A stretch of DNA of 22,637 bases from a virus (IMGVR_UViG_3300017971_003464:1-22637), one strand, 5' to 3'. Shown: positions 977-19,717, numbered from the stretch's first letter. The notes: generated from the sequence alone by a model not told the origin. Numbers and translations are program-made.

Positions 977-1855
977 TCACTCCCACGAGACGCCCTCGCG
1001 CACGTCCTTCAGGCTGTATATCGTGTTGAAATAGTCCTTCTTTACGTAATACGTGTGGCTGTCGTCTCCCTTGAAATGCAGTTGCCCGTACCATCCATCG
1101 CCGCAGTACTTCTGTCCGCACGTATCGCAGATTTCATGTGGTCCTAACCTTCTGGCGACGGTCTTAACCGACTCTTCTTTTAAATCACCGATGATCGGCG
1201 AGTTCATGTTTCGCTCACAAAGCCGGACTTTCAGATCACTGCGCACGACGAAGTAGTACCCCCGCCAGTATTTGCACGTGTATGCGTCGTTTATGCCCTC
1301 GTCAAGCTGCTCGGAGCTAAGCCAGTGCCGGATAATGACATAATCCGCGCCCGCAAATAGCCATCTTCGAATAAAGTCCTCGATTTCGCCCCAGGATTGG
1401 CCCTGTCGGGCAAGGGATACCGCTATCGCGCACGTCCTCTTCGAGCTAAGCAGCGCGTTTACCCGCGCCCGAGGGTCCGTTTTGACGCCTCGATAGTACT
1501 TTATGGTCGATAATCGGAAGCCATCGAGTGAAATACAGATAGATTCTGCGGTATCGAGGGCGATTTCCCATACGTCAGGCCGATCCAGCGTCCCGTTCGT
1601 GGCAAAATTGTAGCGATAGCCACAAAGTGCCAAATATGCGAGCATATCGCCGAAATCTGGGTGCAAAAGCGGTTCTCCGTCGGAAAACGGCACGATTTTC
1701 GTCGTTTTCGGGAATTGATCAACGACCATTTTGAAGTCCTCAAGCGACATATCGCCCTGGCCGCGGACTCCCTGACCCAAATATCGGTAACACCCTCGAC
1801 ATCTAAGGTTACACCTGCTCGTCGTCTCAATAACTAGCTGCTTTATGTATAGCAT
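977..1855 (-). CDS. Radical SAM / SPASM-type protein, 292 aa
   Basis: The N-terminus has the CX3CX2C cluster that binds the SAM-reducing [4Fe-4S] centre: C15, C19, C22 in CNLRCRGC. DGEPLLHPDF at 59-68 is the usual GGEPLL SAM-binding motif with the first Gly replaced. SLDG at 109-112 and a partial TIM barrel follow. The C-terminal cysteines C194, C213, C243, C246 and C251 fit a SPASM or twitch domain carrying auxiliary clusters. Members of this superfamily modify peptides, sugars or cofactors by radical chemistry; the substrate cannot be read from the sequence. The ATG has AGGAG nine bases upstream and lies one base after the stop of a 35-aa ORF. It is the second radical SAM gene in this operon. 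Confidence 0.85.
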   Translation of the reverse strand: MLYIKQLVIETTSRCNLRCRGCYRYLGQGVRGQGDMSLEDFKMVVDQFPKTTKIVPFSDGEPLLHPDFGDMLAYLALCGYRYNFATNGTLDRPDVWEIALDTAESICISLDGFRLSTIKYYRGVKTDPRARVNALLSSKRTCAIAVSLARQGQSWGEIEDFIRRWLFAGADYVIIRHWLSSEQLDEGINDAYTCKYWRGYYFVVRSDLKVRLCERNMNSPIIGDLKEESVKTVARRLGPHEICDTCGQKYCGDGWYGQLHFKGDDSHTYYVKKDYFNTIYSLKDVREGVSWE

Positions 1856-2187: not shown

Positions 2188-2565
2188 CTATAACGGGCGA
2201 GCATCTGCAGTTTCTTCTTCTCCTCGTCCGTCATCATCTCTAAGTTTCCTCCTAAAGTATTCTATGCCTTCCACGTTGAAGCCCATATTTTCCACTTTGT
2301 ACCCCCCAAACCGATCAAATACGATCTGGAACCATATTGGATGATCAGGCCACACAAGAAAGAACATAAACGGTTCCTCAGGAATCCACACCTCGTACTT
2401 AGGCTCCAAACCGTAAAAGCCAATATAGGGCCGAAGGGCATCGCCAAGTGACTCAGCATAGAAGTCCCTCCTCGGCGGTGCGGGAAGTAGCGGAGAAATT
2501 AGGGTAAACGAAACGATAAACACCGAGATTAGAATTATCGTGTGACATGCGTATTTCTCGATCAC
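2188..2565 (-). CDS. Membrane-anchored or exported hypothetical protein, 125 aa
   Basis: Residues about 8-27 form one hydrophobic segment (IILISVFIVSFTLISPLL core) after a short N-terminus with K4, followed by a Pro-rich PAPPRRD. This fits a membrane anchor or an uncleaved signal. The rest, residues 35-125, is soluble, aromatic-rich and ends in an acidic and Arg-rich tail. No family is recognised. It starts with GTG that shares one base with the TAG stop of the cupin gene, so it belongs to the same transcript. An envelope location would fit a cassette acting on surface glycans, but that is inference. Confidence 0.6.
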   Translation of the reverse strand: MIEKYACHTIILISVFIVSFTLISPLLPAPPRRDFYAESLGDALRPYIGFYGLEPKYEVWIPEEPFMFFLVWPDHPIWFQIVFDRFGGYKVENMGFNVEGIEYFRRKLRDDDGRGEEETADARPL

Positions 2566-2915
2566 TAAATCGGTCCGGACACATTTCTCCGCTCCACATC
2601 ATGATCATGGTGCCGCGTTGAGACCTCAAGAATGAACGCAGGCTCATCGCTGCTGTTTCGGAATCGGTGCCAGTGTTCGGCGGGGATAGTTATCGTGTCG
2701 CCCTCTTTGAGCAAGTACCACTTCTCATCGAGTTCCTCGTAGATTTTGCCCCTCAAGACATAGAAGGTCTCATCCTTTACTAGGTGTTGATGGATTGAAC
2801 ACTGGAAGCCGGGATTAAGCGTGATGAGTTTTGCGCAATACCGATCGTTGACAACGATCTTCTCTTCTCCCCAGACCTTCTTGACTGTCTTTATCGGGCG
2901 GGTAGCATAGTTCAT
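2565..2915 (-). CDS. Cupin-fold sugar-phosphate isomerase-like protein, 116 aa
   Basis: Both cupin motifs are present. Motif 1 is G36-x5-H42-x-H44-x4-E49-x6-G56. Motif 2 is G72-x5-P78-x4-H83-x3-N87. H42, H44, E49 and H83 are the expected metal ligands. The short single-cupin length and the VWGEE start resemble the C-terminal cupin of type II mannose-6-phosphate isomerases and related sugar isomerases. Substrate is unknown. I chose ATG 2915 because it overlaps the upstream TGA as ATGA with GGAG close by. An earlier in-frame ATG at 2936 would add seven residues and overlap the upstream gene by 25 bases without a ribosome site. Confidence 0.8.
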   Translation of the reverse strand: MNYATRPIKTVKKVWGEEKIVVNDRYCAKLITLNPGFQCSIHQHLVKDETFYVLRGKIYEELDEKWYLLKEGDTITIPAEHWHRFRNSSDEPAFILEVSTRHHDHDVERRNVSGPI

Positions 2916-3382
2916 CGCTCCAACCTTATGTAACATGGTTTGTTAAGGGTATATGACCAGCGGGCCGATTCACGCACGCGATTTTCCTGCGCCCCGTAGT
3001 TGTTGCTCCATATCTCGATGTCCATGCCGTTTACCACGTGCCAGTCGCCTGAGTCCCAGTGCGTGAAGCCGGCCTCCTGGTATGTTTTGCCCGCCCCGAT
3101 GCCCACGAGACGTATGGGCAACTGCTGATGGTGCATGTACAGCCGGATCATCTCGAACGGGCGAAAGACCAAAAAAGGTATGATCGTAAAACAGTACGGC
3201 TTGAAGCCTTCCTTTGCGAGGCCAGCGGCGGTAAGAATCATTAGTTGCTCGGAGGGCATCATGTTGTTCTTATACTTGCTCCACTCGTCGAGAAACTCAC
3301 CGCCGACGTCTCCGTAGAGGAGGACAATACTGTCATCCTTGATTCTATTGAGTTCGCCGAAGAAAACGTCACGCTGTCTCAC
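2912..3382 (-). CDS. Transketolase-like ThDP enzyme, pyrimidine-binding subunit, 156 aa
   Basis: The sequence matches the pyrimidine-binding (PP) domain of the transketolase family. PSEQ at 43-46 supplies the conserved glutamate E45 that activates the cofactor, followed by TAAGLAKEG and the IIPFLVFRPFEMIR segment typical of split transketolases. It ends at residue 156, so the third C-terminal domain of usual transketolase C-halves (about 300 aa) is missing. The GTG start has AGGAAAG six bases upstream and lies inside the end of the N-subunit gene, giving a 14-base overlap. It should form a heterotetramer with that subunit and transfer a two-carbon unit between sugars. Confidence 0.85.
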   Translation of the reverse strand: MRQRDVFFGELNRIKDDSIVLLYGDVGGEFLDEWSKYKNNMMPSEQLMILTAAGLAKEGFKPYCFTIIPFLVFRPFEMIRLYMHHQQLPIRLVGIGAGKTYQEAGFTHWDSGDWHVVNGMDIEIWSNNYGAQENRVRESARWSYTLNKPCYIRLER

Positions 3383-4046
3383 TGATTACTTTCCTCACAT
3401 GGCACAGGGGATCGTGTTCTAACCAATCGATGCCTCTGCCCTTAACTGTCTTGAATACGATCATCGAGTACGCGGAGATAAGGTTATCTCGGATTGCTCG
3501 CTTGTCGTGACCGTCTGCAACGTAATGATAGCCTAATGGGTAGCCGTTTAGGATTCCGCCGGGGATCGTGTGATATGTCGATTTCGAGTTAAAGTCTACG
3601 ATCGGGCGGATGATTTCCTGCAGGTTATGCTCCCAGATGAACCTAGCGGCCTCCCAAGTACTGCCCTCGTACAGCTCCCCATCGCCTATAAGCACGAAGA
3701 CGCGACCAGTGGTACCTTGAATACGCCTTGCCAGAGATATTCCAACTCCAAGGCCCAAGCCGCATCCGAGCGAACCCGTCGTAAAAGGTACACCCGGTGC
3801 CCGGAAATCGCAGTGAAGCCCATACTTTGGTAGATTCTCCCATTTTAATACTCCTTTCATAGCTAATATCGTGTACAACGCCGGAGCCGCGTGGCCCTTG
3901 GATAAGATAAACTCGTCGTCCTCGCTCAGCACTGGGGGATAGGGCGAGTCCACGCCATACAGAACGGATAGTATATCGACACACGAGAACGACGAGGCTA
4001 TATGATCGGAATAATTCTCAAGTATCTTTTTCCGTATTAGGTCCAT
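3369..4046 (-). CDS. Transketolase-like ThDP enzyme, pyrophosphate-binding subunit, 225 aa
   Basis: This is the N-terminal, ThDP-binding half of a split transketolase. SKGHAAPALY at 49-58 holds the conserved His. TTGSLGCGLGLGVG at 89-102 is the glycine-rich family motif. GDGELYEGSTWEA at 121-133 is the start of the ThDP/Mg motif, which ends near N153. It ends with FKTVKGRG, a normal domain end. At 225 aa it is shorter than usual N-halves (about 270). The ATG has AAGGA seven bases upstream and overlaps the sulfotransferase gene by 29 bases. The set suggests supply of a C5 or C7 sugar phosphate, though the donor and acceptor are not known. Confidence 0.88.
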   Translation of the reverse strand: MDLIRKKILENYSDHIASSFSCVDILSVLYGVDSPYPPVLSEDDEFILSKGHAAPALYTILAMKGVLKWENLPKYGLHCDFRAPGVPFTTGSLGCGLGLGVGISLARRIQGTTGRVFVLIGDGELYEGSTWEAARFIWEHNLQEIIRPIVDFNSKSTYHTIPGGILNGYPLGYHYVADGHDKRAIRDNLISAYSMIVFKTVKGRGIDWLEHDPLCHVRKVISETA

Positions 4047-4671
4047 AATAGGTCCTTACTGCCACCTCTTCGTAGTCCATGATCTTATTCATGAGAGGCT
4101 GGTTCATGTAGTAGGCAACCGGATGCGAAGAGGCGTTTATCTTGACTGTAGGTTCATACGCAGAGAAACTAATGTCCTCGTATTTCTCAATAAACTTGCG
4201 TACACTTGGACCGAGAGTTTCAGTCCTGCCAACTGTCGTATTCGGATTATCGGCGTAGTACTCGTAGAGATAGCTAAGAAAGCCGTCGGGGAAGGTTTTG
4301 ATCACGTTGTCGATGAATGGCTCGAAGCCTTCGAACATGGAATAGTTTCCGTCCCGACAGCGATCAAGTTTGCTGTCATACCAGACTTCGTGTTGGGCCT
4401 TGTGAGTATAGTAGGAAATATACCATGAGGGAGGAAATCGGACGATTACAAGAGACGGTTTTTTGGTGTCAATACGACAGTGAATGCGATCGACTTTCTT
4501 CGTTCCGATGAGGTCCCTCTCAATAGGTCGAGTTGGTCGCTTCTCGCGGTCTTCTGGAGAGTAGAGCAGACTCTCGAACGGAATCTTATTCGTCTCAAGC
4601 AGATTCCTTATCCAGAAGCCGCCCGTCCGGGGTATATGCTGTATCACACAGTGTTCGAGTTCAAAGGCCAT
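4018..4671 (-). CDS. Sulfotransferase-family protein, 217 aa
   Basis: The N-terminal strand-loop-helix IQHIPRTGGFWIRNLL (10-25) is the 5'-phosphosulfate loop of PAPS-dependent sulfotransferases. VRFPPSWYISYY at 77-88 corresponds to the 3'-phosphate-binding region (R, then S further on). Such enzymes move sulfate from PAPS to a hydroxyl or amine on a sugar, peptide or small molecule. At 217 aa it is compact. The acceptor is unknown; the surrounding sugar genes favour a glycan. The ATG has GAGGG upstream and overlaps the preceding radical SAM gene by 11 bases, while the end overlaps the ThDP subunit by 29, so it is embedded in the operon. Confidence 0.75.
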   Translation of the reverse strand: MAFELEHCVIQHIPRTGGFWIRNLLETNKIPFESLLYSPEDREKRPTRPIERDLIGTKKVDRIHCRIDTKKPSLVIVRFPPSWYISYYTHKAQHEVWYDSKLDRCRDGNYSMFEGFEPFIDNVIKTFPDGFLSYLYEYYADNPNTTVGRTETLGPSVRKFIEKYEDISFSAYEPTVKINASSHPVAYYMNQPLMNKIMDYEEVAVRTYYGPNTEKDT

Positions 4672-6076
4672 GATGATCCCTCTCTAGGCGGGTTTCCGTA
4701 AGATTCTCCATGAACTTGCGGGTCTCCTCACCAAAAAGGTTCTCTATTTGGGCAAGGTAGGCTGGATTTCGATGATATGCAGTAAAGGCCCAGTCTCGCC
4801 ACGCGACGGCCCAGGAACCACGGAGTGGATGTGAATCCGGTGTATGTTGGGCGTAACCTGTGTACGATAAAGGGGGTTCCCACCCTGATCTACAAGCATC
4901 ATGGTATAGTAACGAGCCGGGATATGGCATACACGTATTGATGTTCGCCCAAGCGCAGTTGAGGTCGAGCATGAGCTTAAAGGTTTCTCGGTGCGTTTCA
5001 TCTGTATCTTCCTCCATGCCGAACATATAATTTGCGTCGATTTGGATGCCGATCCTATGCGTCAACTCGACTGCCTGATACATCTTCTGCAGGATCTTGC
5101 CCTTCTTGGCCACGTCGAGTACGTGTTCATTTCCGCTTTCGAAGCCATAGCCGATCCAGTTGATGCCCGCTCGCTTCATAGCCACGAGCATCTCCTCATC
5201 AACCGTGTCTACTCGCGCATAGGCCCGCATATTGAGATTTAGCTTTAGACTTGCTATCTTGTCACAAAGCGTGATTACTCGGCTCTTGTTCAAGGCGAAC
5301 ATTTCGTCCATGATCTTGATGTTGACGACACCGTAGGTCTCGTTCAGCCATCGGATCTCGTCAACAACCTGGTCGATTTCCCTGTACCGGACCTTTCGGT
5401 GGATTTCTTCGGGTTCGTAGAAGAGGCTGTTGATTGTGCAGAACTTGCAGCGATATGGGCATCCAAGAGAGGTATAAACCACCGCATAAGGAGATCGAGC
5501 CCTTCCCCCGAAACACATGCAGAGGTGCGCCCGATATTTATCGACAGGCAAAAGATCCCATGCTGGTCTTGGAAGGTCTTTAGGGTCAACGAGGGTTGGA
5601 GCCACAGGGTTGAGGTTCTCTTTGGAGATGAATCCTGCCGGGTACTTTTTGCCTCTGAGATACTCTTCGATTCCATTAAATCCTTCTCCTTTGATAGCGT
5701 AATCGACTCCGTTGATCTCTAAGCAGTCTAGCGGGAGCGCGGAGGGGTGAAGTCCGTGTAAAGCGACAGGAGCGTTGATGAGAGGACTAAGATGAACAAC
5801 ACCAACCATATTCTGAGTGGAGGCATTAGGATTAGTACCGCTAACGGCGATAACACAAAGATGAGCCTGACGATCGTTAATATGTTGAGCTGTTTCTTCA
5901 TAAGTCCATCCTTCTACTTGGGCGTCGAGTAGTTCTGCCTCGAAGCCCTTTGCGCGTAGATATCCGGCGAGTAGGGCTCCCCAAAAAGGCGGTTCGCATC
6001 CCGTCCAGCCCTTCTCCTCAAGACCTGGATATATCTTCGCTTGATTATTCGCTCTGACTATTACTACGTCGGTCAT
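4661..6076 (-). CDS. B12-binding-type radical SAM protein, 471 aa
   Basis: Residues 1-140 fit a cobalamin-binding Rossmann domain of the BchE-like class: a conserved early Pro/Gly region, LLAGYLRAKGFE, and HGLHPSALP where GGPHPTALP is common. The classical DxHxxG ligand motif is not seen, as in many of this class. CPYRCKFC at 206-213 gives C206, C210 and C213 for the SAM cluster. A full TIM-barrel part follows with GYGFESGNE and MFGMEEDT. These enzymes catalyse methylation, cyclisation or other radical reactions on unreactive carbons. I chose ATG 6076 because GGAG lies ten bases upstream; an ORF extension to 6103 lacks this. Confidence 0.88.
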   Translation of the reverse strand: MTDVVIVRANNQAKIYPGLEEKGWTGCEPPFWGALLAGYLRAKGFEAELLDAQVEGWTYEETAQHINDRQAHLCVIAVSGTNPNASTQNMVGVVHLSPLINAPVALHGLHPSALPLDCLEINGVDYAIKGEGFNGIEEYLRGKKYPAGFISKENLNPVAPTLVDPKDLPRPAWDLLPVDKYRAHLCMCFGGRARSPYAVVYTSLGCPYRCKFCTINSLFYEPEEIHRKVRYREIDQVVDEIRWLNETYGVVNIKIMDEMFALNKSRVITLCDKIASLKLNLNMRAYARVDTVDEEMLVAMKRAGINWIGYGFESGNEHVLDVAKKGKILQKMYQAVELTHRIGIQIDANYMFGMEEDTDETHRETFKLMLDLNCAWANINTCMPYPGSLLYHDACRSGWEPPLSYTGYAQHTPDSHPLRGSWAVAWRDWAFTAYHRNPAYLAQIENLFGEETRKFMENLTETRLERDHHGL

Positions 6077-6209
6077 TAACAAGTTTCTCCAGAATCTCGT
6101 CATGGCGCATAACTATGCGGGCTGTCGATAATAGAACCTCCCACAGGGTCGGGAAGTTGTCTCCTTGCAAGGCTCGTTCGAGCGTTTCTCTATCAAAATC
6201 AGATGACAT
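6045..6209 (-). CDS. Small hypothetical protein, 54 aa, nested between sugar genes
   Basis: ATG 6209 has AGGCGG seven bases upstream and lies within the last codons of the SDR gene. The frame ends inside the start of the B12 radical SAM gene, a 32-base overlap. The product is mostly helical and amphipathic (TLWEVLLSTARIVMRHDEILEKL), with a polar tail. No family is recognised. It fits the overlapping style of this operon, but it could also be a translational coupling leader. Confidence 0.5.
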   Translation of the reverse strand: MSSDFDRETLERALQGDNFPTLWEVLLSTARIVMRHDEILEKLVNDRRSNSQSE

Positions 6210-7131
6210 TACAAAACCGCCTATTCTCAATTTGCTTATAGCCTTTAATGAGTTCTCTTATACCGTCGTCGAGGGAATGCTTGAACTTAAAGCCTGTCTT
6301 GAGGAGCTTACTCGAATCGAGAGCGAAGTTCCGCTGATCGGGGTCTTCTCTATAGGGAGCCTCGTGGTAATAGAAGTCGGGAATATGCTTTTTAATCCGC
6401 GCGCAAAGATCGAGTTTTGACAAGTTTGCCTCGGGCAGGCCGACATTATACGCCTCCCCCTTCATCGCTTCGAAGTTCTTCAGACCATGTAAAAAGGCTC
6501 GTGCTGCATCCCGGACGTGGACGGCGTTGCGCAGGTAGTGTCCCTGATAAACGACTAGAGATGAGTCCTTGAGAGCACGATATGTGAAGTCGTTGACAAG
6601 TAAATCTATCCGCATCCTCGGCGACATGCCGAACAGCGTTGCTAATCGAAATGATATACTGTTCTCTCTCTCCAGGATTAGTTCCTCCGCCAGAACCTTC
6701 GTTTGACCATAAAAGGATAGTGGCTTCAATTCGCATGATTCGTCTACTGCTCCTTCCCCCTCGCCGTAGCCCGAGTTCGTACAGGGAAAAAGTATCTTAG
6801 TGCTTGTTGGTGTGTTCCATACGAGGTTACGAACAGAGTCGAGGTTGACTTCTTTTGCCTTCTGCACGTTTTGCTCACAAGCTGGTGCTCCGACGATGGC
6901 AGCTAACCATATAATAACATCGAACATCTGAAAAAACCACGGTTTAAGCTTGCGGACATCCTTCCTAATAATCTCGAAGTTGTGATAATGGCAAACCTCC
7001 ACGAGAGAAGGAACTTTCCTCATGAAGTTATCGACAGCGACAACCTTATGTTCGCTGTTGTCCATTCTGACAAGATAAGGCGTCAGGATGCTTCCCAAAT
7101 AGCCCGCAGCACCTGTAACTAAGATTTTCAT
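6199..7131 (-). CDS. NAD(P)-dependent nucleotide-sugar epimerase/dehydratase (extended SDR), 310 aa
   Basis: An N-terminal Rossmann motif TGAAGYLGS places glycines at 7, 10 and 13. LAAIVGAP follows near 76-83. The catalytic set is T118/S120, Y141 and K145 in YGQTK. RNAVHVRDAARA near 201-211 is the substrate-domain signature of epimerase/dehydratase family members. Such enzymes oxidise, epimerise, dehydrate or reduce the sugar of a nucleotide sugar. The exact reaction is not decidable, since 4-epimerases, 4,6-dehydratases and reductases share these motifs. It starts at ATG overlapping the TGA of the RmlC-like gene (ATGA). Pairing with a 3,5-epimerase-like partner suggests a deoxy- or keto-sugar route. 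Confidence 0.88.
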   Translation of the reverse strand: MKILVTGAAGYLGSILTPYLVRMDNSEHKVVAVDNFMRKVPSLVEVCHYHNFEIIRKDVRKLKPWFFQMFDVIIWLAAIVGAPACEQNVQKAKEVNLDSVRNLVWNTPTSTKILFPCTNSGYGEGEGAVDESCELKPLSFYGQTKVLAEELILERENSISFRLATLFGMSPRMRIDLLVNDFTYRALKDSSLVVYQGHYLRNAVHVRDAARAFLHGLKNFEAMKGEAYNVGLPEANLSKLDLCARIKKHIPDFYYHEAPYREDPDQRNFALDSSKLLKTGFKFKHSLDDGIRELIKGYKQIENRRFCNVI

Positions 7132-7637
7132 TTAGTCTCCTCGAAGGGCATTATAATAGAGAGATCAGTTTCGCCTGAATCTCTTCTTGAGAGAATAGGG
7201 TCTTTGGTGGGCCAATATATATCGTAGGCCGGATCGTCGTATCTGATAGTGAACTGCTGTTGCGGTCCTCCGTAGTCTGCACTTTGCTTGTACCACCAGA
7301 CGACAGGGTCAGTGAGGGCGAGGTGTCCAAGTCCGAGGCCAGGTCTACTGAGTAGTGCCACACGAGACTTTTCGTCGATTGTGTAACTCTCCCACTTCTT
7401 TGATTGCGGGTCGACCACAACAACGTACGCCGCGCCATAGAGAACGCTGACATACTTCCATGTCCGTCTGTCGCCGTGTATTCCACGTAAGACTCCTTTC
7501 CTTGATATTGATATATCATCTTGGATGAAAGGTACTTTATGTCCGAGCTTTAAGATCCACCCGGAGTTGTAAATCTCACAGTATTCGCCTCGATGGTCGA
7601 TGAACGAATCGAGCTTAACTCTTTTAGCTAGCGGCAT
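7128..7637 (-). CDS. dTDP-4-dehydrorhamnose 3,5-epimerase-like (RmlC-type) protein, 169 aa
   Basis: The double-stranded beta-helix hallmarks of RmlC are visible. FIQDDISISRKGVLRGIH (37-54) carries the catalytic-type H54. A later GLGHLALTD (102-110) stands where GxAHGF is usual. YKQSADYGG and IRYDDPAYDIYWP near the end are standard. Known members epimerise C3 and C5, or only one of these, on NDP-4-keto-6-deoxy sugars. The GHGF change and the lack of RmlA, RmlB and RmlD nearby make a plain rhamnose role doubtful. The ATG has GGGAG ten bases upstream and overlaps the kinase gene by 14 bases. Confidence 0.85.
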   Translation of the reverse strand: MPLAKRVKLDSFIDHRGEYCEIYNSGWILKLGHKVPFIQDDISISRKGVLRGIHGDRRTWKYVSVLYGAAYVVVVDPQSKKWESYTIDEKSRVALLSRPGLGLGHLALTDPVVWWYKQSADYGGPQQQFTIRYDDPAYDIYWPTKDPILSRRDSGETDLSIIMPFEETK

Positions 7638-8625
7638 AGATTATATGGCTCCCTTCGTGGTCCAGTCCGACCCTGATTGGTTCGAACTTTGGAAATACTT
7701 TGATCAGACGAGAATGGGCAGAGGGAGGGGTAAGGAGCATCAAAAAACCCCCTCCCCCTGCACCGCATAGCTTTGCTCCCCAGGCTCCGTTGTTGAGCGC
7801 GGTTGCAATTATGCCGTCGATAGCATCGTTGGACACAAGAGGAGATAGCTTCTTCTTTATCAGCCACGCATCGTTGAGATACTTGCCCAGCGATTCGTAG
7901 TCTTCCTGCATAAGGCAGTAACGAGCGGAGGGGACCATGGAGGCAAGCTCGCATAAGGCGGAGGTTGAGTTCCTACGGAGCTTGTCCTTTTCGATTGTCT
8001 GTGCTATTCTAGTGAAGCCGGTAAACAAGAGAAGAATGTTGTCGAAGAAAGATTGATTTCTGAGTAAGATCCCCTCCAGCTCGATTCTGCCGTTTTCTCG
8101 AAACTTGATTACGTTGAGTCCTCCATAGGCGGCTGCGGTTTGGTCCTGACAACCGACAGTTTCTCCGATGAGTTCTCGTTCGATGCGGATTGCTCGTCCT
8201 GCAAGCTCTTGAGGACCAACTGGAGTTTCTCGGATTCCATAGAGAGTATTGAGCAGACCAACTGTAAAAGCAGATGACGATCCGATGCCACTTCTTGCGG
8301 GAAGGTCGCCATCGTGCGTAAGAGTGCAAGGCATATCCCATCCAAGGTCTCGGAAACATGCTCTAACCGATGGATGTTTGATGTCATTTATTTCCTCCAC
8401 GTTTTCAATTTGCGAGTACCGGATTCTGTACTTCGTCTTGCCGAGCGGCGGAACTTTGCGGACCATGACATAGGAATACTTGTCGATAGCCATGGATAGA
8501 ACCTGGCCGCCGTGTTTACGAAAGTGTTCGGGGAAATCGCTCCCACCCCCGAAGAAGCTAATGCGGTACGGAGTCCGGCTTATTACCACGATGGATATTG
8601 TCGCATATTCGGGGGCAGTACGCAA
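7624..8625 (-). CDS. GHMP-family sugar kinase, D-glycero-D-manno-heptose 7-phosphate kinase-like, 333 aa
   Basis: The start region ISRTPYRISFFGGGSDFPE is typical of HddA and fucokinase-like GHMP kinases. PARSGIGSSSAF (109-120) is the ATP phosphate-binding loop. GAKLCGAGGGGF (283-294) is the third GHMP motif. HddA phosphorylates C1 of heptose 7-phosphate on the way to GDP-heptose; an equivalent sugar is possible here. The TTG at 8625 has AGGGTGA nine bases upstream, which supports it; a later GTG at 8589 would match the usual family start but lacks a clear ribosome site. It is the first gene of the leftward operon. No GmhA or HddC partner is in the window. Confidence 0.85.
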   Translation of the reverse strand: MRTAPEYATISIVVISRTPYRISFFGGGSDFPEHFRKHGGQVLSMAIDKYSYVMVRKVPPLGKTKYRIRYSQIENVEEINDIKHPSVRACFRDLGWDMPCTLTHDGDLPARSGIGSSSAFTVGLLNTLYGIRETPVGPQELAGRAIRIERELIGETVGCQDQTAAAYGGLNVIKFRENGRIELEGILLRNQSFFDNILLLFTGFTRIAQTIEKDKLRRNSTSALCELASMVPSARYCLMQEDYESLGKYLNDAWLIKKKLSPLVSNDAIDGIIATALNNGAWGAKLCGAGGGGFLMLLTPPSAHSRLIKVFPKFEPIRVGLDHEGSHIIYAAS

Positions 8626-8642
8626 GAATTATTTTCACCCTA

Positions 8643-8671
8643 TTGACACATCTCGGCGTATATTATAGAGT
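8643..8671 (+). promoter_or_regulatory. Candidate rightward promoter for the virion module
   Basis: A consensus TTGACA at 8643-8648 and TAGAGT at 8666-8671 (four of six, keeping the key T, A and T) are separated by exactly 17 bases. Transcription would start about 8678, so the first gene, with ATG at 8680, would be nearly leaderless. That agrees with its lack of a good ribosome site (only GAG). Confidence 0.5.
8662..8667 (-). promoter_or_regulatory. Candidate -10 element for the leftward operon
   Basis: On the minus strand this is a perfect TATAAT, about 37 bases upstream of the TTG start of the kinase gene. No good -35 is present at 16-18 bases, so it may need an activator or a phage-modified polymerase. 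It overlaps the rightward promoter, so the two directions probably compete. Confidence 0.4.
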
Positions 8672-8679
8672 ATCTGCAA

Positions 8680-8973
8680 ATGAGCGAACAGTTCGACGTC
8701 GAAGACTATATCGAGCACCATCTTGTGCCGAAGGCGCTTGAGCGTATCGATTTGCTACTCGATTCTTCAAATGAGTCAACCGTGCGGGAAGTCGCCAAGG
8801 ACGTCCTCGATCGAGGCAAGACGACAAATCGTAAGTCCGGCGATGATAACCGATCGGTGAACGTGTTGAACTTCGATCCTAAGTATTTGGCTACAGCAGT
8901 GAAAGGAATGATCCGTGTCCTCAAAGACGATACGTCAGTGGACGAACAAGGGGTGGATAACCAGGAAAGTTAG
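8680..8973 (+). CDS. Small protein upstream of TerL, possible terminase small subunit, 97 aa
   Basis: The protein is acidic and helical. Residues 11-50, with IEHHLVPKALERIDLL and STVREVAKDVLDRGK, resemble the helical segments seen in small proteins encoded just before TerL. A helix-turn-helix cannot be shown convincingly. Its stop TAG shares a base with the GTG start of TerL, so the two are coupled. Position suggests a DNA-recognition subunit of the packaging motor, which is inference from synteny only. The start has only GAG as ribosome site and may be read from a leaderless transcript. Confidence 0.6.
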   Translation: MSEQFDVEDYIEHHLVPKALERIDLLLDSSNESTVREVAKDVLDRGKTTNRKSGDDNRSVNVLNFDPKYLATAVKGMIRVLKDDTSVDEQGVDNQES

Positions 8974-10664
8974 TGACCTTCGAGATAACCCCTCATCCGA
9001 ACGCTCGGATGTTCGAGGGGACAGACAAAGAGACGATTCTCAAGCAACTGATCCAGGAGATGCAGAATCTCCAGACGACGGAGAATCTGCGTGAGGGCCT
9101 GCGCCAGGCGGGATTCGTCAGCCTCTTCTTCTTCGAGAAGTTTATTGCGGGATATAACGGACCGTTTGACAAGCTCAACTACGGCCTCCATCTGGATATG
9201 GCCAACTTCTACCAAAAATACGCGCTTGTTCCCGGCTGTCGAGTGGCCTGCTTCGAGCCGCGATTCCACTACAAGTCTTCTGTGTTCACTACTGGAGGAA
9301 ATGGGTGGGATCTGCTAAGAGACCCGAATGAGACGATCGGGTTATACCACGCGAAATACGATGAAGCTCTGGACTTTTTGCATATCACGCAGCGCGTATT
9401 CGACTCAAACGAGTTCTTCAGGTGGCTGTATCCCGAGTACGTGCCCGAGCGGGGGCAGAAAGAGTGGAACGACAACGAGATGAGGCTGCCGCCTACGGTT
9501 AAGACACGGCACACGAAAGAGTGTTCCCTCGAATGCGGCTCCGTCGGGGGTACTTCCCAAGGTCGGCACTATACCAAAATCTGCATGGATGACATCGTTG
9601 GGGAGCAGGACCTCGATGCGGGACGAGCTTCGTCAATCGAGATGCTCAAGAAGACGAACTGGATCTCCGATGCCGAGCGAGCCTTAGTCATGACCGCGAC
9701 TTCGACCAGGATTGTGCTTGCCGCGACGAGATATGCCGAGGACGACGCCTACAGCCAAGTTAGTGATAATATGGGCAAGTTGATCGCCTACGACGATGAG
9801 AAAGCACTCGATTATCAGGTAGTCCCGAACGGGAAGTGGACGGTTTATTGGAGATTCGTCGAGGAGAATGGGAAGATCATCTTCCCGGAGGCGGTCACGA
9901 AAGAATATTTGGAAGATACGCGGAAGAACAATCCGTGGTTCTATTGGACACAACTTGAGAACAGACCCAAACGATCGGGTCTGAATGAGCTGATCAGTTA
10001 CAAAGTACATGATTGCAAGTTGATTTACGACGATGATAAGGGGTATCTTATAACATATGGAGAGCGCCAGGTCCAACCGCTCGATGAATGCGATGTCATA
10101 CAGGCGGAGGACCCAGCAGCTACGGAAACTGGAGTCAGCGCTAAAACATCTCGAACGGCTGTTGTACTCGTCGCTCACGCACCCGACAACAAACGATTCA
10201 TTATTGAAATCAGGGCGGGGTTTGTCGGGACGAGCGAAGGCTTTTCTTGGTTATTCGACAACGTGCGAAAGTATAAAGACTATCTTCGTGCGACTATCTT
10301 CGAAGCTCAGGGACCGTTCAAGGCGCTAATCGGGCCGCTGCGTGAGATGGAAAGTAGGGAGGAGTGCTACTTGAGCCTTGATCCGCAACCGGCAGAAGGT
10401 AAGAAAGATATACGAATCCGCAACGCGCTGCAACCTCTGGTTTCCGCTAACCTACTCTACATCGACGAGACCATTCGGTCTAAGTTTGACGACGAGTACA
10501 GACGTTTTGCCCCAGGAGCCAAAGCCCACATCGATATTCTTGATGCCTGTGCTTTGGCCCTTTCAAACACCATACGACCGCTGTCCGAAGAGGAGCGTCT
10601 GAAAAAGACAGTACTCAGAGAGAGGAGAAAACTGGCGTATACAACTAACGTCGCTGGTTACTAA
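8973..10664 (+). CDS. terL: Terminase large subunit, 563 aa
   Basis: This is the packaging ATPase and nuclease. The ATPase has the P-loop PRFHYKSS at 96-103 with K101. This is a deviant Walker A in which the Gly before Lys is Tyr. ICMDD at 203-207 is Walker B (D206, D207). ATR at 251-253 is the coupling region with DDAY after it. The C-terminal RNase H-like nuclease has acidic residues near D380, E444 and D521/D524. Full length and intact motifs argue for a working gene. It starts with GTG overlapping the upstream stop, with AGGAAAG upstream. The motor docks on the portal encoded two genes later. Confidence 0.92.
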   Translation: MTFEITPHPNARMFEGTDKETILKQLIQEMQNLQTTENLREGLRQAGFVSLFFFEKFIAGYNGPFDKLNYGLHLDMANFYQKYALVPGCRVACFEPRFHYKSSVFTTGGNGWDLLRDPNETIGLYHAKYDEALDFLHITQRVFDSNEFFRWLYPEYVPERGQKEWNDNEMRLPPTVKTRHTKECSLECGSVGGTSQGRHYTKICMDDIVGEQDLDAGRASSIEMLKKTNWISDAERALVMTATSTRIVLAATRYAEDDAYSQVSDNMGKLIAYDDEKALDYQVVPNGKWTVYWRFVEENGKIIFPEAVTKEYLEDTRKNNPWFYWTQLENRPKRSGLNELISYKVHDCKLIYDDDKGYLITYGERQVQPLDECDVIQAEDPAATETGVSAKTSRTAVVLVAHAPDNKRFIIEIRAGFVGTSEGFSWLFDNVRKYKDYLRATIFEAQGPFKALIGPLREMESREECYLSLDPQPAEGKKDIRIRNALQPLVSANLLYIDETIRSKFDDEYRRFAPGAKAHIDILDACALALSNTIRPLSEEERLKKTVLRERRKLAYTTNVAGY

Positions 10665-10667
10665 CGT

Positions 10668-11567
10668 ATGGAAATTGGTCATAGCACGGTTTACCTGCAT
10701 AAGGCAGAAGATTGGGTAGATGTATTTCTGCTCGGGGATTTCCACGAAGGGAACTACAACCACGATCACGAGGCGCTCGACGCATCGATCAAGATTATCA
10801 AGCAGAACGCCGAGAAGAATCCTTACACTTTTGTGATTCTGATGGGAGATTACTGCGAGTATATTGTTTCGCAGAGTGATCCCAGATGGGACCCTGTTGT
10901 CGTCAGTGACAAGTACAAGATCAAAGACCTAAAAAACCTTGCCTACAAGCAGACTGATATGCTTTTCGAAAGAATCGAGCCGATCAAACATCACGTTGTT
11001 GCTCTACTCGTCGGGAATCACGAAGAGAGCTTTATCAAGCACAACGCTTCTGACGTATACGACTATTTAACCAAGAAGTTCCCTGATGCAACGAAACTCG
11101 GCTACGTCGGTTATTACGTCTTCGACGTTGAATACCAAAACTCTACGATGAGGACGATCTTCGCGCTGAACCACGGCGAGGGCGGGGGCGGTAAGACACT
11201 CGGCTACCAGGAGAATAAGCTCTACGATTTGTTCCACATGGAAAAGAGCGCAGCTTACCGGATTGCTGGACACATGCACAGATTGATCACCCGTGATGTT
11301 CTCATGCGCGACCCCGATCAGTTGCTTCAGCGCGTGAACAGGGAGCGTATTTGGTACGGGTGTTCAGGATGTTATCTACGAACCTATAAGGTTGGACATA
11401 AGAACTACTTTGAGAAAAAGGGCCGCGAGGAGGCCGACATCGGTATGTTGAAAGCGAGTTTCAGATATTATCATAGACAAAAAGACGGTCGGCGGTTTTG
11501 GGTTAAACAGCACCTGCTGAAGAAGATCCAGTTCGATCTCAACGACGGCTCATGGGAGGAGAAGTGA
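10668..11567 (+). CDS. Calcineurin-like metallophosphoesterase, 299 aa
   Basis: All five metal-binding blocks are visible in order: GDFHE (D24, H26), MGDYCE (D61), VGNHEE (N117, H118), LNHGEGG (H169) and AGHMH (H202, H204). This family hydrolyses phosphomonoesters, phosphodiesters or nucleic acids with two metal ions. The gene sits between TerL and portal, follows TerL by three bases, and overlaps the portal start as GTGA. A role in packaging, DNA processing or host nucleotide metabolism is possible; the sequence does not choose. Residues after 210 are basic, which would suit nucleic acid binding. Confidence 0.85.
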   Translation: MEIGHSTVYLHKAEDWVDVFLLGDFHEGNYNHDHEALDASIKIIKQNAEKNPYTFVILMGDYCEYIVSQSDPRWDPVVVSDKYKIKDLKNLAYKQTDMLFERIEPIKHHVVALLVGNHEESFIKHNASDVYDYLTKKFPDATKLGYVGYYVFDVEYQNSTMRTIFALNHGEGGGGKTLGYQENKLYDLFHMEKSAAYRIAGHMHRLITRDVLMRDPDQLLQRVNRERIWYGCSGCYLRTYKVGHKNYFEKKGREEADIGMLKASFRYYHRQKDGRRFWVKQHLLKKIQFDLNDGSWEEK

Positions 11568-13405
11568 GCGACATTTTCATCGACGAGGAACAAAAGAAAG
11601 AAGTAGTCACGTATTTACAGGAAGAGACCAACAAGGCGTTTTACGAGCGGGAGCTTGTAGAGCGCAAATGGATGAAGTGGCGGCGTCAGGCCGACGCACG
11701 ACCGGAGAAAGACGTCAAGTCGTCTCCCTGGGAAGGCGCGGCGAATGTCTGCGTGCCGTTGACGGCCATGATCACCGACGGCATCTACGCGGCTATGAAG
11801 TCGGCTTTTGCGGCTCGCAAGCCGCTCATCACCGCCAAACCCCTTGATAAATCACCCGAGGACATCCGTCGAGCCGAGGTCATAAGCAAGTATCTGAACA
11901 TACTGTTCTCGTCGCCCAGACATATCAACTACGACAAGATTTCGAATACCTTATATAGAGATTTGGTCTTGTTGGGCACGCAATTCGTGGAGATACCCTG
12001 GACGATTCAGCAGCAGATGTTCAAGAAACGCGATGATAGTGGAGCGTTGATACAGGTGACGCAGCTACAGAAAAACTGCCCGACAGTGGTACCGATCAGG
12101 CTTGAGGACTTCGTTGCGAGAAGCTACTTTACGGACCCGCAGACGATGCCCTGGTACGGTATACGGCACCGCTTCGCCGAGCATGAGTACAGACGGGAGG
12201 TTAGCCTTGGTTTCTTCGAAGACGTTTTGGAATCCAGAGAAGTCCTTGACGACGAAGGACTTGAACATGAGCTACGACGATCTGGTGTTTCTCTACAGAA
12301 TACTCAGTTGTATCAAATTATCAAGTATCACCTCTTCTGGGACATCGACGGCGACGGGTTCTTCGAGGACATCATCGTCTGGATGGACCCGAACACTGGA
12401 CACGTAGCCCGCAGCGAGTTCAACGAGCTGGGCGTTCGGCCTGTCGTGCGTTTACCTTACGTAGACGTTTCGAACAACCTTTACGCGCAGGGCACGGGTC
12501 ATATGTGCGAGCACTTACAAGACGAGGTCGACGCTTTGCACAATATGCGAATCGATGGAACTCAACTGTCGATGTTGCAGATCATCATCGCGCGGCGCGG
12601 GTGCGGCTTCGAGGAGGACGAGGAGTTCTATCCGCTTGCGGTCAAGCTCGTCTCTGATCCTACGAAGGACGTGCAGATCGTGAAGTTTCCTGACATCGGC
12701 CCGACAAGTTTCACCGCCGAGTCGATTGCTAGAATGTATGCTGAAAGACGGACTGGTTACGGGCCTGCAACCGCAGGTTTTCCCGACGAATATGCGAAGA
12801 CGCGTGCTACATTCTCGGGCCAGGCTCTACAGGCCCAACAGTCCGATAAGCTGGCGGCGGCTGTTCGGGATAATACCGGCGATGCATGGGGCGAGATTGC
12901 CCAGATGGTGGTCTTCCGCCTAATCGAGCATAGAGACGAAGTAGATTTGAGTCTTTTATCCGAGGAAGACGTGCCGATCATGCAGGACATCCTCAATATT
13001 CCAATCGAGGATATCCCGCTGAGGTTCCGCTTCTCGATCCAGATTACCGACACCGCCGAGACCGAAGAGGCGCGGAGGCAGGGCTTGCTGATGCTTGCCA
13101 ATCTGTACACGCAATATTGGCAGGGTATCTTCCAGCTGATGCCGATGTTCTTCAACGAGATGTCGCCGCCGCAGGTACAGCAGGCCGCAGCTGGATTCTA
13201 CTCGACGGCAGGTATCAAGGGACTGACCGGGGCTAGCGAGCTTATGCGCAAGATATTCGATTACTTCGGCGAAGACGACGTGAAAAAATACATACCCTAC
13301 ACGAAAGACCTTGAGATGTTGACTCAGGCGATCGAGAACATGAAGGAGATGCAGGTTAGAAATGTACGAACACGACAAGCCCAGGGGATTGCCGGAAATC
13401 CATAA
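11564..13405 (+). CDS. Portal protein, 613 aa
   Basis: The N-terminal part has the family pattern of Trp- and Arg-rich RKWMKWRRQADAR, then SSPWEGAANVCVPL, then a long helical region. The stretch around VALHNMRIDGT (DEVDALHNMR) and the later helices fit the stem and crown. The portal forms a dodecameric ring at one capsid vertex through which TerL pumps DNA. I take GTG 11564 as start because it overlaps the previous TGA (GTGA) and has GGAGG four bases upstream. A slightly earlier ATG at 11552 lies within that ribosome site. Length is typical of portals of podovirus-like and related phages. Confidence 0.85.
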   Translation: MSDIFIDEEQKKEVVTYLQEETNKAFYERELVERKWMKWRRQADARPEKDVKSSPWEGAANVCVPLTAMITDGIYAAMKSAFAARKPLITAKPLDKSPEDIRRAEVISKYLNILFSSPRHINYDKISNTLYRDLVLLGTQFVEIPWTIQQQMFKKRDDSGALIQVTQLQKNCPTVVPIRLEDFVARSYFTDPQTMPWYGIRHRFAEHEYRREVSLGFFEDVLESREVLDDEGLEHELRRSGVSLQNTQLYQIIKYHLFWDIDGDGFFEDIIVWMDPNTGHVARSEFNELGVRPVVRLPYVDVSNNLYAQGTGHMCEHLQDEVDALHNMRIDGTQLSMLQIIIARRGCGFEEDEEFYPLAVKLVSDPTKDVQIVKFPDIGPTSFTAESIARMYAERRTGYGPATAGFPDEYAKTRATFSGQALQAQQSDKLAAAVRDNTGDAWGEIAQMVVFRLIEHRDEVDLSLLSEEDVPIMQDILNIPIEDIPLRFRFSIQITDTAETEEARRQGLLMLANLYTQYWQGIFQLMPMFFNEMSPPQVQQAAAGFYSTAGIKGLTGASELMRKIFDYFGEDDVKKYIPYTKDLEMLTQAIENMKEMQVRNVRTRQAQGIAGNP

Positions 13406-13607
13406 GCAGGCTTTACGGGATCTCCGAAGCAACGAAACGATGTGGCGGGCGTTAACGCACCAGCGGGACGAGGTTCTCGTCGGGCCATTTACACAGCTTA
13501 GAACCGCCACCGATATGAACGATGTGATTTTTGCGAGAGGAGTCATCCACGGTATAGAGGAACTCTTCTCGAATGTACAACGACTGGCGAAGGAGGCCAA
13601 GGAATGA
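13362..13607 (+). CDS. Small hypothetical protein between portal and scaffold, 81 aa
   Basis: A helical protein, with Asp/Glu/Lys/Arg-rich segments and a closing helix ending FSNVQRLAKEAKE. It overlaps the portal 3' end by 44 bases and has AGGTTAG just upstream of its ATG. It ends in an ATGA overlap with the next gene. Small helical proteins at this position are common in phages and may be accessory head proteins, but no family is recognised here. Confidence 0.65.
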   Translation: MYEHDKPRGLPEIHKQALRDLRSNETMWRALTHQRDEVLVGPFTQLRTATDMNDVIFARGVIHGIEELFSNVQRLAKEAKE

Positions 13608-14464
13608 GTGACGAAGTAGAGATTAAGTTCGAACAGCCGCCCGAAGGCGATCCTTGGACCTCGTGGGAACCCGAGGAAGACTACGTAACTAAAGAAGAGA
13701 CGGAAGAGCCTACTGAGGAGCCTACAGGTCCGAACAGAGAGGAGCTTGAGGCTGAGGTCGAGCGGTTGAAGACGAGCATAGCCGCCGCCGAATCCAGGGG
13801 AGACTCGGTCAGCGCGATGACTAAGTCAATTGAGGGCTTGCGGGAGGCGCTGACGCAGCCGACTCAGCCTGTTCAGCATCCGCAGGAGTCTGAGGAAGAC
13901 TTCAACAAGCGGTATCAAGAGTTACTAATCGAGAATCCGGTTGCGGCCAACGAGGAGTTGATGAAGCGAAAGCTCGGTCCTATGCTCGGTCGGCTCGAAG
14001 GAGCCCTGATCAAGGTGACTCGGAATAATGTCAGGCGGGACAATCCCGAGACATTTGGGCGATACGAGGCTGAGATTGACCGGGAGTTTCAAACGATGCC
14101 CTACAAAGATGAGGACAGCTATCAGAAGGCGCACGATCTGGTCGTCGCGCGGCACTTGAGCGATTTGCAGGCTCCAACGAACGAGAAGATTGCGCAGTTG
14201 GAGAAAGAGATCGAAGAGCTGAAGAAGACTCGCGGAGCGCCGGCTAAACCCGCCGGACCTACGTATACGCCGCAGCAGGGACCGGGACCATCCAGCACAC
14301 GGCCTAAGCGCGTTGTGTCGAACTATCAACGGCAGAAGGCCGGGCAGATAGCGTTGAGGAAACGAGGAAGCACCTCGTTCGGGAATCATATACTGGCTAC
14401 GGCGCATCGGATGGTCGACGAGGGCAAAGCGAAAGACCTCGATGACGCACTTGGGAGGATGTAA
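13604..14464 (+). CDS. Scaffold-like head assembly protein, 286 aa
   Basis: The composition is typical of scaffolding proteins. There is a strongly acidic N-terminus to residue 50, coiled-coil segments at about 44-80 and 195-215 (EKIAQLEKEIEELKKT), a Pro/Gly-rich linker near 215-240, and a basic C-terminus that could bind capsid protein. No protease motif (Ser/His/Asp) is visible. It lies between portal and major capsid in the expected place, beginning with an ATGA overlap and ending in a TAATG overlap. Call rests on composition and position; sequence family is not identified. Confidence 0.65.
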   Translation: MSDEVEIKFEQPPEGDPWTSWEPEEDYVTKEETEEPTEEPTGPNREELEAEVERLKTSIAAAESRGDSVSAMTKSIEGLREALTQPTQPVQHPQESEEDFNKRYQELLIENPVAANEELMKRKLGPMLGRLEGALIKVTRNNVRRDNPETFGRYEAEIDREFQTMPYKDEDSYQKAHDLVVARHLSDLQAPTNEKIAQLEKEIEELKKTRGAPAKPAGPTYTPQQGPGPSSTRPKRVVSNYQRQKAGQIALRKRGSTSFGNHILATAHRMVDEGKAKDLDDALGRM

Positions 14465-15105
14465 TGGACGATTTTTTGCACGTGACTATTGACACAACTT
14501 TCGAAGATATAGTAAAATGGGATGAACAATCTAAGCGGGTGGACTTCGCTCATGAGCCTGGCAAGTTCAAGGAATTGAGTGAGAAGCAACTGGAGCAGCT
14601 CAGTGTATGGGCCAAGCGGCAGTACTTCCTCTCGAAGAACATGAATAAGCAGGCGAAGGCGGAAGAGGAAAGCCCGATCAAGGGCTTGAAAGTATCCCCA
14701 CGTTTAGTTTCACCGGGCAATAAGCTCGCGGTTGAGTATAAAGAGGGGTTTCGGGATAAGTGGCATCCCGCGTGGCTCCGGGCGGACGGGCATTACAAGC
14801 ACTTGCGTGACGGCTACCAGCCTATTACGCACGAGGAGATTGAGCATCATTTTGCGCCCGGCTTAGGTGCTGGGTCTACCGTCCAAATCGGAACAGAGCG
14901 GGAAACAGAGCTGATCCTGTACAAGTTACCTCTTGAAGAGCACGAGAGGCGTTTAGCCGCCGCTGGTAGGGTTAGTAGCGATCGCGTTGCTACGAACCAG
15001 GAGAACACGATGGAGGCTATTCGTCAGGGGGGAGGCCAAGCCTCCAAGCCGCCCGAGGGCAACGACGGGAGAAACTGGTCATCCCTACCGGAATACGAGA
15101 GGTAG
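14464..15105 (+). CDS. Head-region protein of unknown function, 213 aa
   Basis: Residues 90-125 contain a Trp-, His- and Gly-rich block (FRDKWHPAWLRADGHYKHLRDGYQPIT) that resembles small virion proteins with a compact beta fold of the type 'W-x-R ... GY'. The rest is helical and polar, with a Gln/Gly-rich disordered tail. No function is known. It starts as TAATG after the scaffold gene. Its C-terminal codons form the left arm of a hairpin that ends in the following 45-base gap. A promoter-like element lies inside its first 20 codons. Confidence 0.65.
   Translation: MDDFLHVTIDTTFEDIVKWDEQSKRVDFAHEPGKFKELSEKQLEQLSVWAKRQYFLSKNMNKQAKAEEESPIKGLKVSPRLVSPGNKLAVEYKEGFRDKWHPAWLRADGHYKHLRDGYQPITHEEIEHHFAPGLGAGSTVQIGTERETELILYKLPLEEHERRLAAAGRVSSDRVATNQENTMEAIRQGGGQASKPPEGNDGRNWSSLPEYER
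14489..14518 (+). promoter_or_regulatory. Promoter-like element inside the gene before the capsid genes
   Basis: A consensus TTGACA at 14489-14494 and TAAAAT at 14513-14518 (five of six) lie 18 bases apart, in an AT-rich patch unlike its coding surroundings. It would boost transcription of the decoration-like and major capsid genes 630-1130 bases downstream. It could also be a chance match. Confidence 0.35.
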
Positions 15106-15126
15106 TTTAAGCCTCGGTTCGTATTC
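15091..15126 (+). other. RNA hairpin just upstream of the capsid genes
   Basis: GAATACGA (15091-15098) pairs with TCGTATTC (15119-15126), and GAGG (15099-15102) with CCTC (15112-15115). There is a 3-base bulge and a 9-base loop that contains the stop codon of the preceding gene. It has no U-tract, so intrinsic termination is unlikely. RNA processing or protection of the downstream capsid message is a reasonable inference. Confidence 0.5.
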
Positions 15127-15150
15127 TAACACTCAATTTCGGAGCTTTAT

Positions 15151-15642
15151 ATGGCACAGGTAGCTAATTCAACCGGCTTCACGCCGGTCTTGAACCTGGC
15201 CGTCGGAACTTCTGCTGTCCCTATCTGGGACGCGCTGCTTAAGTCCAACAATCTGATCTCTACCGGAGACGTTGCATACGCCTCCGCTGGGTACGTTCAG
15301 GCCGCGCAAACGACGGACAAATACCCGGTAGGTGTTACTTCTACTCGACAGGCTACGAGCGTTACGACCAACGTTTCTGTTGGTTTGTTTCCCGCTGCCG
15401 ACTGGGTAGTCTTTCGAGGTCAGTACGGCGGAACTGCAACTCAGGCTCACGTCTGGACAGCGCACTCAATCGCCGGAACCCGGGGCAAGCAGGAGATTTC
15501 TGACTCTGCTGGGGGCAAGTGTACGTGGATCATAGGTAAGGAGAGCACCTCTTCGTATGGTGCTTACACTACTATGTATTTCGTCTTTTCGAAGTCTAAG
15601 TTTACTGGCAAGACTTTCGATTCGGCTGGCCCGGCTGTTTAA
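15151..15642 (+). CDS. Capsid decoration-like protein, 163 aa
   Basis: A Gly/Ala/Thr/Ser-rich, beta-rich protein with few charged residues. It lies just before the major capsid gene, where decoration (cementing) proteins usually lie. Features such as TGDVAYASAGYVQ and SVGLFPAADWVVFRGQYGG suggest an extended beta structure. The GGAGCTTTAT ribosome site precedes the ATG. Assigning it as a decoration protein is from position and composition; no family motif is seen. The 45-base gap before it holds the hairpin described separately. Confidence 0.6.
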   Translation: MAQVANSTGFTPVLNLAVGTSAVPIWDALLKSNNLISTGDVAYASAGYVQAAQTTDKYPVGVTSTRQATSVTTNVSVGLFPAADWVVFRGQYGGTATQAHVWTAHSIAGTRGKQEISDSAGGKCTWIIGKESTSSYGAYTTMYFVFSKSKFTGKTFDSAGPAV

Positions 15643-15654
15643 GGAGGATTACAG

Positions 15655-16581: not shown

Positions 16582-16592
16582 GGAGGCTTTAA

Positions 16593-16976
16593 ATGGCGAC
16601 AAGAAACGAAACCCATCTTACACACCTCAACTTAGGCTCAGGAAATCTTTCTACGAGCGGAACAGCCAGACTTTCGACTCTCCAGGCTACATCGCCTGCG
16701 CTGAGTCACCCGGTTATGGGAAGTGTCTCGGTCATCGAGACAATTAACCTGAAGCAAACTTATGTGAATCTGGCAACCGGTAACGGACAGTATACAATCA
16801 CGGGGCACGCTTCGGGCGACGTATTGCTCAACGCGAGCTACGTAAGATTTTCAGCAGGCGCGGTTCAAACCGCTGGTGCGGCAACAGTAACAGAGGCGTC
16901 TGACACGCTGGTGAGTTTTAGCGGCGTTGTTTCGACTGCCCTTGGTTGTCTCAACTGGATTGACGTTAGCGCATAA
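16593..16976 (+). CDS. Virion protein of unknown function, 127 aa
   Basis: Ser/Thr/Ala/Val-rich, beta-rich, few charged residues. The region 40-75 (SVSVIETINLKQTYVNLATGNGQYTITGH) suggests a beta-sandwich. It starts after AAGGAGG just past the capsid gene, so it is probably highly expressed, such as an additional decoration protein or a head-fibre part. No family motif seen. Confidence 0.6.
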   Translation: MATRNETHLTHLNLGSGNLSTSGTARLSTLQATSPALSHPVMGSVSVIETINLKQTYVNLATGNGQYTITGHASGDVLLNASYVRFSAGAVQTAGAATVTEASDTLVSFSGVVSTALGCLNWIDVSA

Positions 16977-17836: not shown

Positions 17837-17854
17837 TCATAAGGAGGTTAGTAA

Positions 17855-18121: not shown

Positions 18122-18148
18122 TGGTAGTAGTGGATTGCGGACCTAACA

Positions 18149-19432: not shown

Positions 19433-19452
19433 GATATTAGGAGATAATGACG

Positions 19453-19716: not shown

Positions 19717-19717
19717 G

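Follow-up and report, generated by a model that had tools for sequence, protein, structure and literature searches.

An eight-gene sugar cassette on a tailed-virus fragment, with a predicted GDP-sugar C4-dehydrogenase of the Cj1427 type and a possible role in branched-sugar synthesis

The virus fragment IMGVR_UViG_3300017971_003464, the whole of which (22,637 bases, or 22.6 kb) was analysed and is hereafter called the window, carries eight open reading frames (ORFs) on the minus strand, from position 8625 down to 2565, adjoining tailed-virus structural genes. In the order of transcription, these ORFs encode a HddA-like GHMP sugar kinase (7624–8625), an RmlC homologue (7128–7637), a short-chain dehydrogenase/reductase (SDR; 6199–7131), a B12-binding radical S-adenosylmethionine (SAM) enzyme (4661–6103), a possible sulfotransferase (4018–4671), the two subunits of a transketolase-like enzyme dependent on thiamine diphosphate (ThDP), namely the ThDP-binding (PP) subunit (3369–4046) and the pyrimidine (PYR) subunit (2912–3382), and a standalone cupin (2565–2936). 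Adjacent ORFs overlap by 1–29 nt, except that the B12 radical SAM gene follows the SDR gene after a gap of 95 nt, so that the tight arrangement reported in the first-pass annotation of this DNA is confirmed. Seven of the eight gene labels given there are backed by Pfam (GHMP kinase, with both N- and C-terminal domains, RmlC, SDR, B12-binding/radical SAM, transketolase N, transketolase pyrimidine and cupin); the eighth, sulfotransferase, finds no family-level match and is left with two motifs. The kinase probably starts at the GTG at 8589 rather than at the TTG at 8625, judging from the sequence and the alignment.

The first three genes form a core that resembles GDP-heptose enzymes. Among the solved structures in the PDB, the SDR matches the Campylobacter jejuni entries 6vo6 and 6vo8 with an E-value of 1.8e-86, and the next structure follows at 4.9e-18; 6vo6 we take to be Cj1427, the C. 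jejuni protein to which the SDR is 47% identical, with S120/Y141/K145 and the stretch SPRMRxDLLVNDFT retained. On its sequence, the SDR is assigned as a GDP-sugar C4-dehydrogenase of the Cj1427 type. Cj1427 itself oxidises GDP-D-glycero-manno-heptose at C4 and regenerates NAD with alpha-ketoglutarate (PMC10680097). The kinase is predicted to be an anomeric kinase of the HddA type: its best NCBIfam match is HddA, a distant one (138 bits, the cut-off being 600), and its best PDB sequence match is 4n3o.

The closest PDB relatives of the RmlC homologue are the GDP-4-keto-heptose epimerases of C. jejuni, with which it shares the motif RGIHGD, where the dTDP enzymes read RGLH[FY]Q. When its residues were mapped onto the C. 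jejuni structures (PMC7949155), His67, Asp69, Lys74, His123, Tyr134 and Asp173 were found to be retained, the D69/H123 pair being the signature of this type, and Ile56 and Asn121 of the C. jejuni enzymes to be replaced by Ser and Leu, respectively. The protein is thus a predicted GDP-sugar epimerase for which a heptose substrate is likely and a hexose possible. A canonical dTDP-rhamnose assignment was rejected because the protein has RGIHGD, L121 and H123 instead of RGLH[FY]Q, H121 and an aromatic residue at 123; the absence of RmlA, RmlB and RmlD from the fragment also speaks against that route. The first-pass annotation had linked the cassette to an unusual sugar and to the GDP-heptose route through the HddA-type kinase, and this link now extends to the SDR and the RmlC homologue, which themselves fall into the Cj1427 and DdahB/MlghB families.

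The PP subunit matches Pfam Transketolase_N, retains the ThDP motif GDGE..N and has as its best PDB match 6yak, the N component of a split-chain transketolase. The PYR subunit, with 156 amino acids (aa) and a match to Transket_pyr only, retains the catalytic Glu (SEQ) and the GxTH motif and ends before Transketolase_C, the third domain, which is present in four relatives; the earlier description as a split transketolase accordingly holds for the PP and PYR parts, the supposed C-terminal half being a PYR domain alone. The B12 radical SAM protein matches the Pfam B12-binding and Radical_SAM domains, its CxxxCxxC motif is invariant in 7 relatives at 31–38% identity, and it may be a C-methyltransferase or an AprD4-like enzyme. 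The cupin is similar to the isomerase domain of the type II phosphomannose isomerases (PMIs), matching Pfam MannoseP_isomer (5.6e-11) and the C-terminal part of NCBIfam GMP_PMI, and retains the HxH/E/H metal ligands and the terminal DxxxR-like Asp/Arg; for its predicted fold (mean predicted local distance difference test score, pLDDT, 82.5) an archaeal PMI ranks first, tied with other cupins. The same family adjoins a kinase in the cyanophage Bellamy (kinase-cupin-nucleotidyltransferase) and in SynMITS9220M01, where such a series lies close to a separate kinase-GmhA series, and it is plausible that the cupin acts as a ketose-aldose isomerase standing in for GmhA. The SynMITS9220M01 member of the family (3431–3781 of locus L178; profile E 7e-64) is annotated as a ‘putative nucleotidyltransferase'.

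The product of 4018–4671 matches nothing in Pfam (at E-values up to 1), NCBIfam or PHROGs, and has no meaningful PDB sequence match. It contains a loop resembling the 5'-phosphosulfate-binding motif (HIPRTGG) and a segment resembling the 3'-phosphate-binding motif (RxP..SxY), collinear with those of one PF03567 protein (P 0.0024), and its fold predicted from the single sequence is unusable (pLDDT 39), so that a sulfotransferase is possible at the level of motifs. No counterpart of this gene was found in the gene sets examined, and PF00685 and SIS_2 searches of the related phage records brought up a single SIS_2 fragment, at the end of a contig, and otherwise nothing of use.

Neither GmhA, GmhB, HddC and a C4-reductase nor a nucleotidyltransferase, a phosphatase and a glycosyltransferase were found on the 22.6-kb fragment, but these absences carry little weight because the contig is an incomplete piece of a virus genome and starts with a G run typical of the artefacts at contig ends. 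No viral contig sharing the left end of the window was found, and the extension proposed earlier fails for that reason: the two further contigs that are 100% identical to the window (over 7245–15869 and 10206–18237) are confined to 7245–18237. The first-pass annotation called the nucleotidyltransferase and any glycosyltransferase absent, which is unsupported on such a fragment; moreover, phage relatives that combine kinase and SDR (L090 and L098) encode a nucleotidyltransferase of the HddC/GMP type.

No relatives were returned when viral contigs were scanned with the B12 radical SAM enzyme, SDR, transketolase and sulfotransferase as single proteins, and an alignment-based scan, with the window SDR, one phage SDR and Cj1427, was required. 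It recovered 366 SDR relatives from genomes of bacteria and archaea and 322 from viral contigs, of which the top 80 in either set were retained; the 80 viral SDRs show 42–52% identity, and their loci fall into 20 groups when dereplicated at 70% SDR identity. A B12 radical SAM gene is present in 13 of these groups, a two-subunit ThDP enzyme in 12 and an RmlC homologue in 10; kinase and nucleotidyltransferase occur in 3 groups each and GmhA in none. The ThDP enzyme therefore goes with the maker of the C4 ketone rather than with the kinase, and it accompanies the SDR even in viral loci that have no kinase. Of 22 records tested, 15 come from genuine phages, given that a terminase or T4-type head protein (PF03237, Gp23) was detected in them; a PF20441 search detected no terminase in the related records. 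The commonest ThDP pair in these phages, found alongside the Cj1427-like SDR in loci between L092 and L169 (12/20 groups), is a two-domain enzyme of about 210 + 181 aa resembling the E1 component of pyruvate dehydrogenase (PDH-E1), with a 181-aa subunit that is likewise too short for the third domain; no description of this short pair was found, and it (f3/f5) was rejected as the closest relative of the window pair (f34/f62). In L105 (3081–9999) and similar loci of T4-like phages, repeated genes with GT7 glycosyltransferase as well as LamG-like domains lie beside the SDR/epimerase set. The 237-kb record that holds L105 (G015) encodes a Gp23 head protein (95809–97233) that reads through one in-frame TAA, possibly a stop reassignment, an intron or an error.

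In bacteria, 18 loci with a close SDR were compared with 62 control loci with a distant SDR; these and the following statistics ignore phylogeny and are suggestive. A kinase lies near the SDR in 10 of the 18 close loci and in 2 of the 62 distant ones (P 1.4e-6), and the B12 radical SAM gene and the ThDP pair each do so in 5/18 and 1/62 (P 0.002 for either). Among 20 kinase loci, GmhA occurs in 7 and the ThDP/B12 genes in another 7, never both (P 0.02). Plain GDP-heptose clusters that include GmhA are represented by L015, L019 and L024. Split transketolase, SDR and B12 radical SAM occur together in L011, L017 and L018.

Taken together, these observations favour, at a probability of about 0.4, the reading of the cassette as an accessory module for nucleotide sugars in which a GDP-4-keto sugar would be made, epimerised and given a two-carbon branch at C4 by the ThDP enzyme. 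In such a pathway, a sugar phosphate (heptose-7-phosphate or a related compound), of which the cupin isomerase may be the source, would be phosphorylated at C1 by the kinase and activated to the GDP-sugar by enzymes encoded outside the fragment; the SDR would then oxidise C4, the epimerase would invert C3 and/or C5, the ThDP pair would attach two carbons at the C4 ketone to give a branched sugar, as in yersiniose and avilamycin, and the radical SAM enzyme, possibly along with the sulfotransferase, would decorate the product before its placement on a host cell-surface glycan during infection. ThDP enzymes of two subunits or one (AviB1/B2, Pau11/12 and YerE) are known or proposed to put a two-carbon C4 branch on nucleoside diphosphate (NDP)-4-keto sugars (PMC4753412, PMC10338323). 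C4 branching is favoured over a supply of sedoheptulose-7-phosphate because the occurrence of the ThDP pair tracks that of the C4-ketone maker and not that of the kinase or GmhA, and it would explain why no C4-reductase is seen. The host surface is the most likely target because cassettes of this sort usually serve to modify it, in agreement with the clusters in which the relatives lie. Several points weigh against the branched-sugar reading: Ser56 of the epimerase is a hexose-type residue, where C. jejuni uses Ile56 for C7; the window ThDP pair is transketolase-like, unlike the commonest, PDH-E1-like phage pair; the association statistics rest on 18 bacterial loci uncorrected for phylogeny; and the C4-reductase and the activation genes may simply lie on the missing part of the contig.

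The principal alternative, which we consider somewhat unlikely, is that sedoheptulose-7-phosphate comes from the transketolase, the cupin takes the place of GmhA as isomerase, and the kinase together with host or missing enzymes yields GDP-manno-heptose, to be modified by the SDR and the epimerase with a C4-reductase encoded off the contig, so that the product would be an ordinary GDP-heptose of the C. jejuni type. The matches of kinase, SDR and epimerase to heptose enzymes, the PMI-like nature of the cupin and the kinase-cupin-nucleotidyltransferase sets of Bellamy and SynMITS9220M01, the latter beside its kinase-GmhA set, all fit this scheme. It is harder to reconcile with the ThDP pair accompanying the SDR in loci devoid of a kinase, with the lack of GmhA from every kinase locus that bears the ThDP genes and with Ser56, and a dedicated transketolase would be odd when sedoheptulose-7-phosphate already is a central metabolite. 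The role of C7-sugar maker that the first-pass annotation suggested for the transketolase is judged weak on the same distribution of ThDP pairs.

A GDP-hexose route, with GDP-mannose as the substrate of SDR and epimerase and a GDP-4-keto-hexose that is then branched or C-methylated while the kinase salvages another sugar, is improbable in our estimate, although Ser56 would suit a hexose, the C. jejuni epimerases accept mannose substrates as well (PMC7949155), and most viral loci consist of the SDR, often with the epimerase, in the absence of heptose synthesis genes (GmhA was not found in 27 of 28 whole records). Such a route sits poorly with the retention of His123, the residue that contacts the C7 hydroxyl, in the window epimerase as well as in each of the 16 further phage epimerases examined, and with the bacterial relatives that tie the SDR to a HddA-like kinase. 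That the genes are unrelated cargo gathered piecemeal is very improbable. For it speak the unconserved order of the genes, the lack of the full set of eight from every other locus examined and a sulfotransferase without a counterpart in the sets examined; against it, the genes overlap, their active-site motifs are intact, and the same families co-occur, with controls, in unrelated bacteria and phages.

The cassette partly resembles several known systems. With the GDP-heptose pathway of the C. jejuni HS:2 capsule (HddA, Cj1427, Cj1430, Cj1428) it shares a kinase of the HddA-like kind, the Cj1427-type C4-dehydrogenase and an epimerase of the same clade; the window fragment differs in the lack of C4-reductase, GmhA, GmhB and HddC and in the addition of the ThDP pair, the B12 radical SAM enzyme, the cupin and the possible sulfotransferase. 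The bacterial surface-glycan clusters of bacterium JPMR_metabat.36 (L011), Holophagaceae (L017) and Phycisphaerae (L018) have the split transketolase, Cj1427-like SDR and B12 radical SAM, the first two also the kinase; in contrast to the window, these clusters have a full three-domain transketolase and no RmlC or cupin match, L011 and L017 have a DegT aminotransferase, and a glycosyltransferase was identified in L011. The T4-like phage cassette L143/L144, the latter in a record that encodes terminase and Gp23, includes adjacent SDR and RmlC homologues, split transketolase, cupin and a radical SAM gene, but has an aminotransferase and no match to the kinase or sulfotransferase, and belongs to another virus lineage. 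A HddA-like kinase within a phage sugar cassette is also found in the Synechococcus phages SynMITS9220M01 and Bellamy, where it lies beside the cupin family of the window and a nucleotidyltransferase, and in Caulobacter phage Cr30, where it pairs with GmhA; these three have no Cj1427-type SDR at the identity level of the window. YerE, AviB1/AviB2 and Pau11/Pau12 likewise pair a ThDP enzyme with a maker of NDP-4-keto sugars, but are of the acetolactate-synthase or PDH-E1 types and use pyruvate, whereas the window pair is transketolase-like with two domains. No paper describing the combined gene set was found in a literature search; viral sugar cassettes are known, and it is the combination of a GDP-4-keto-sugar core with ThDP and B12 radical enzymes that is undescribed in the literature searched.

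Next to the cassette, on the plus strand, the virus encodes its own terminase, nuclease, portal and major head protein (8973–16581; PHROGs). The structural module at 8973–21550 is collinear with Caudoviricetes sp. vir526; terminase, portal, head protein and four other proteins make up the match. Given this collinearity, the listing of Methanomicrobiales as the host in the vir526 record, and a portal that, vir526 aside, has no match among 50,697 phage records, the virus, labelled a phage in the first-pass annotation, is probably an archaeal tailed virus with a methanogen host; ribosome-binding sites gave no informative host signal. The cassette looks like an accessory island because the neighbourhood of the vir526 terminase is free of sugar genes. 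Downstream of the cassette, a second radical SAM gene (977–1855, minus strand; Pfam Radical_SAM) shows a weak profile match to the radical SAM genes of L143/L144 and could be a further member of the set. Near the left end, AT-rich non-coding DNA contains a 27-nt inverted repeat (143–276; 85% complementary, arms 80 nt apart), which may have a part in replication or control.

Methanogen viruses with some envelope-sugar genes and numerous genes for radical SAM enzymes have been described before (PMC9723712). With considerable doubt, we extend the branched-sugar reading to a wider proposal, namely that many phages and scattered bacteria have in common an undescribed pathway in which a Cj1427-type dehydrogenase would yield a 4-keto GDP-sugar (heptose or hexose), C4 would receive a ketol branch from a split ThDP enzyme of two domains, and the sugar would be alkylated or deoxygenated by a B12 radical SAM enzyme, the methanogen virus using it to remodel the envelope glycan of its host. 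The core of the cassette points to a concrete series of reactions, as opposed to a generic list of sugar genes, and the recurrence of the same enzyme families over many phage contigs and several bacterial phyla means that a widespread unknown pathway could be assigned. This would add a chemically specific case of envelope-sugar genes among the relatives of methanogen viruses, a field in which the modification of envelopes by viruses has received little study.

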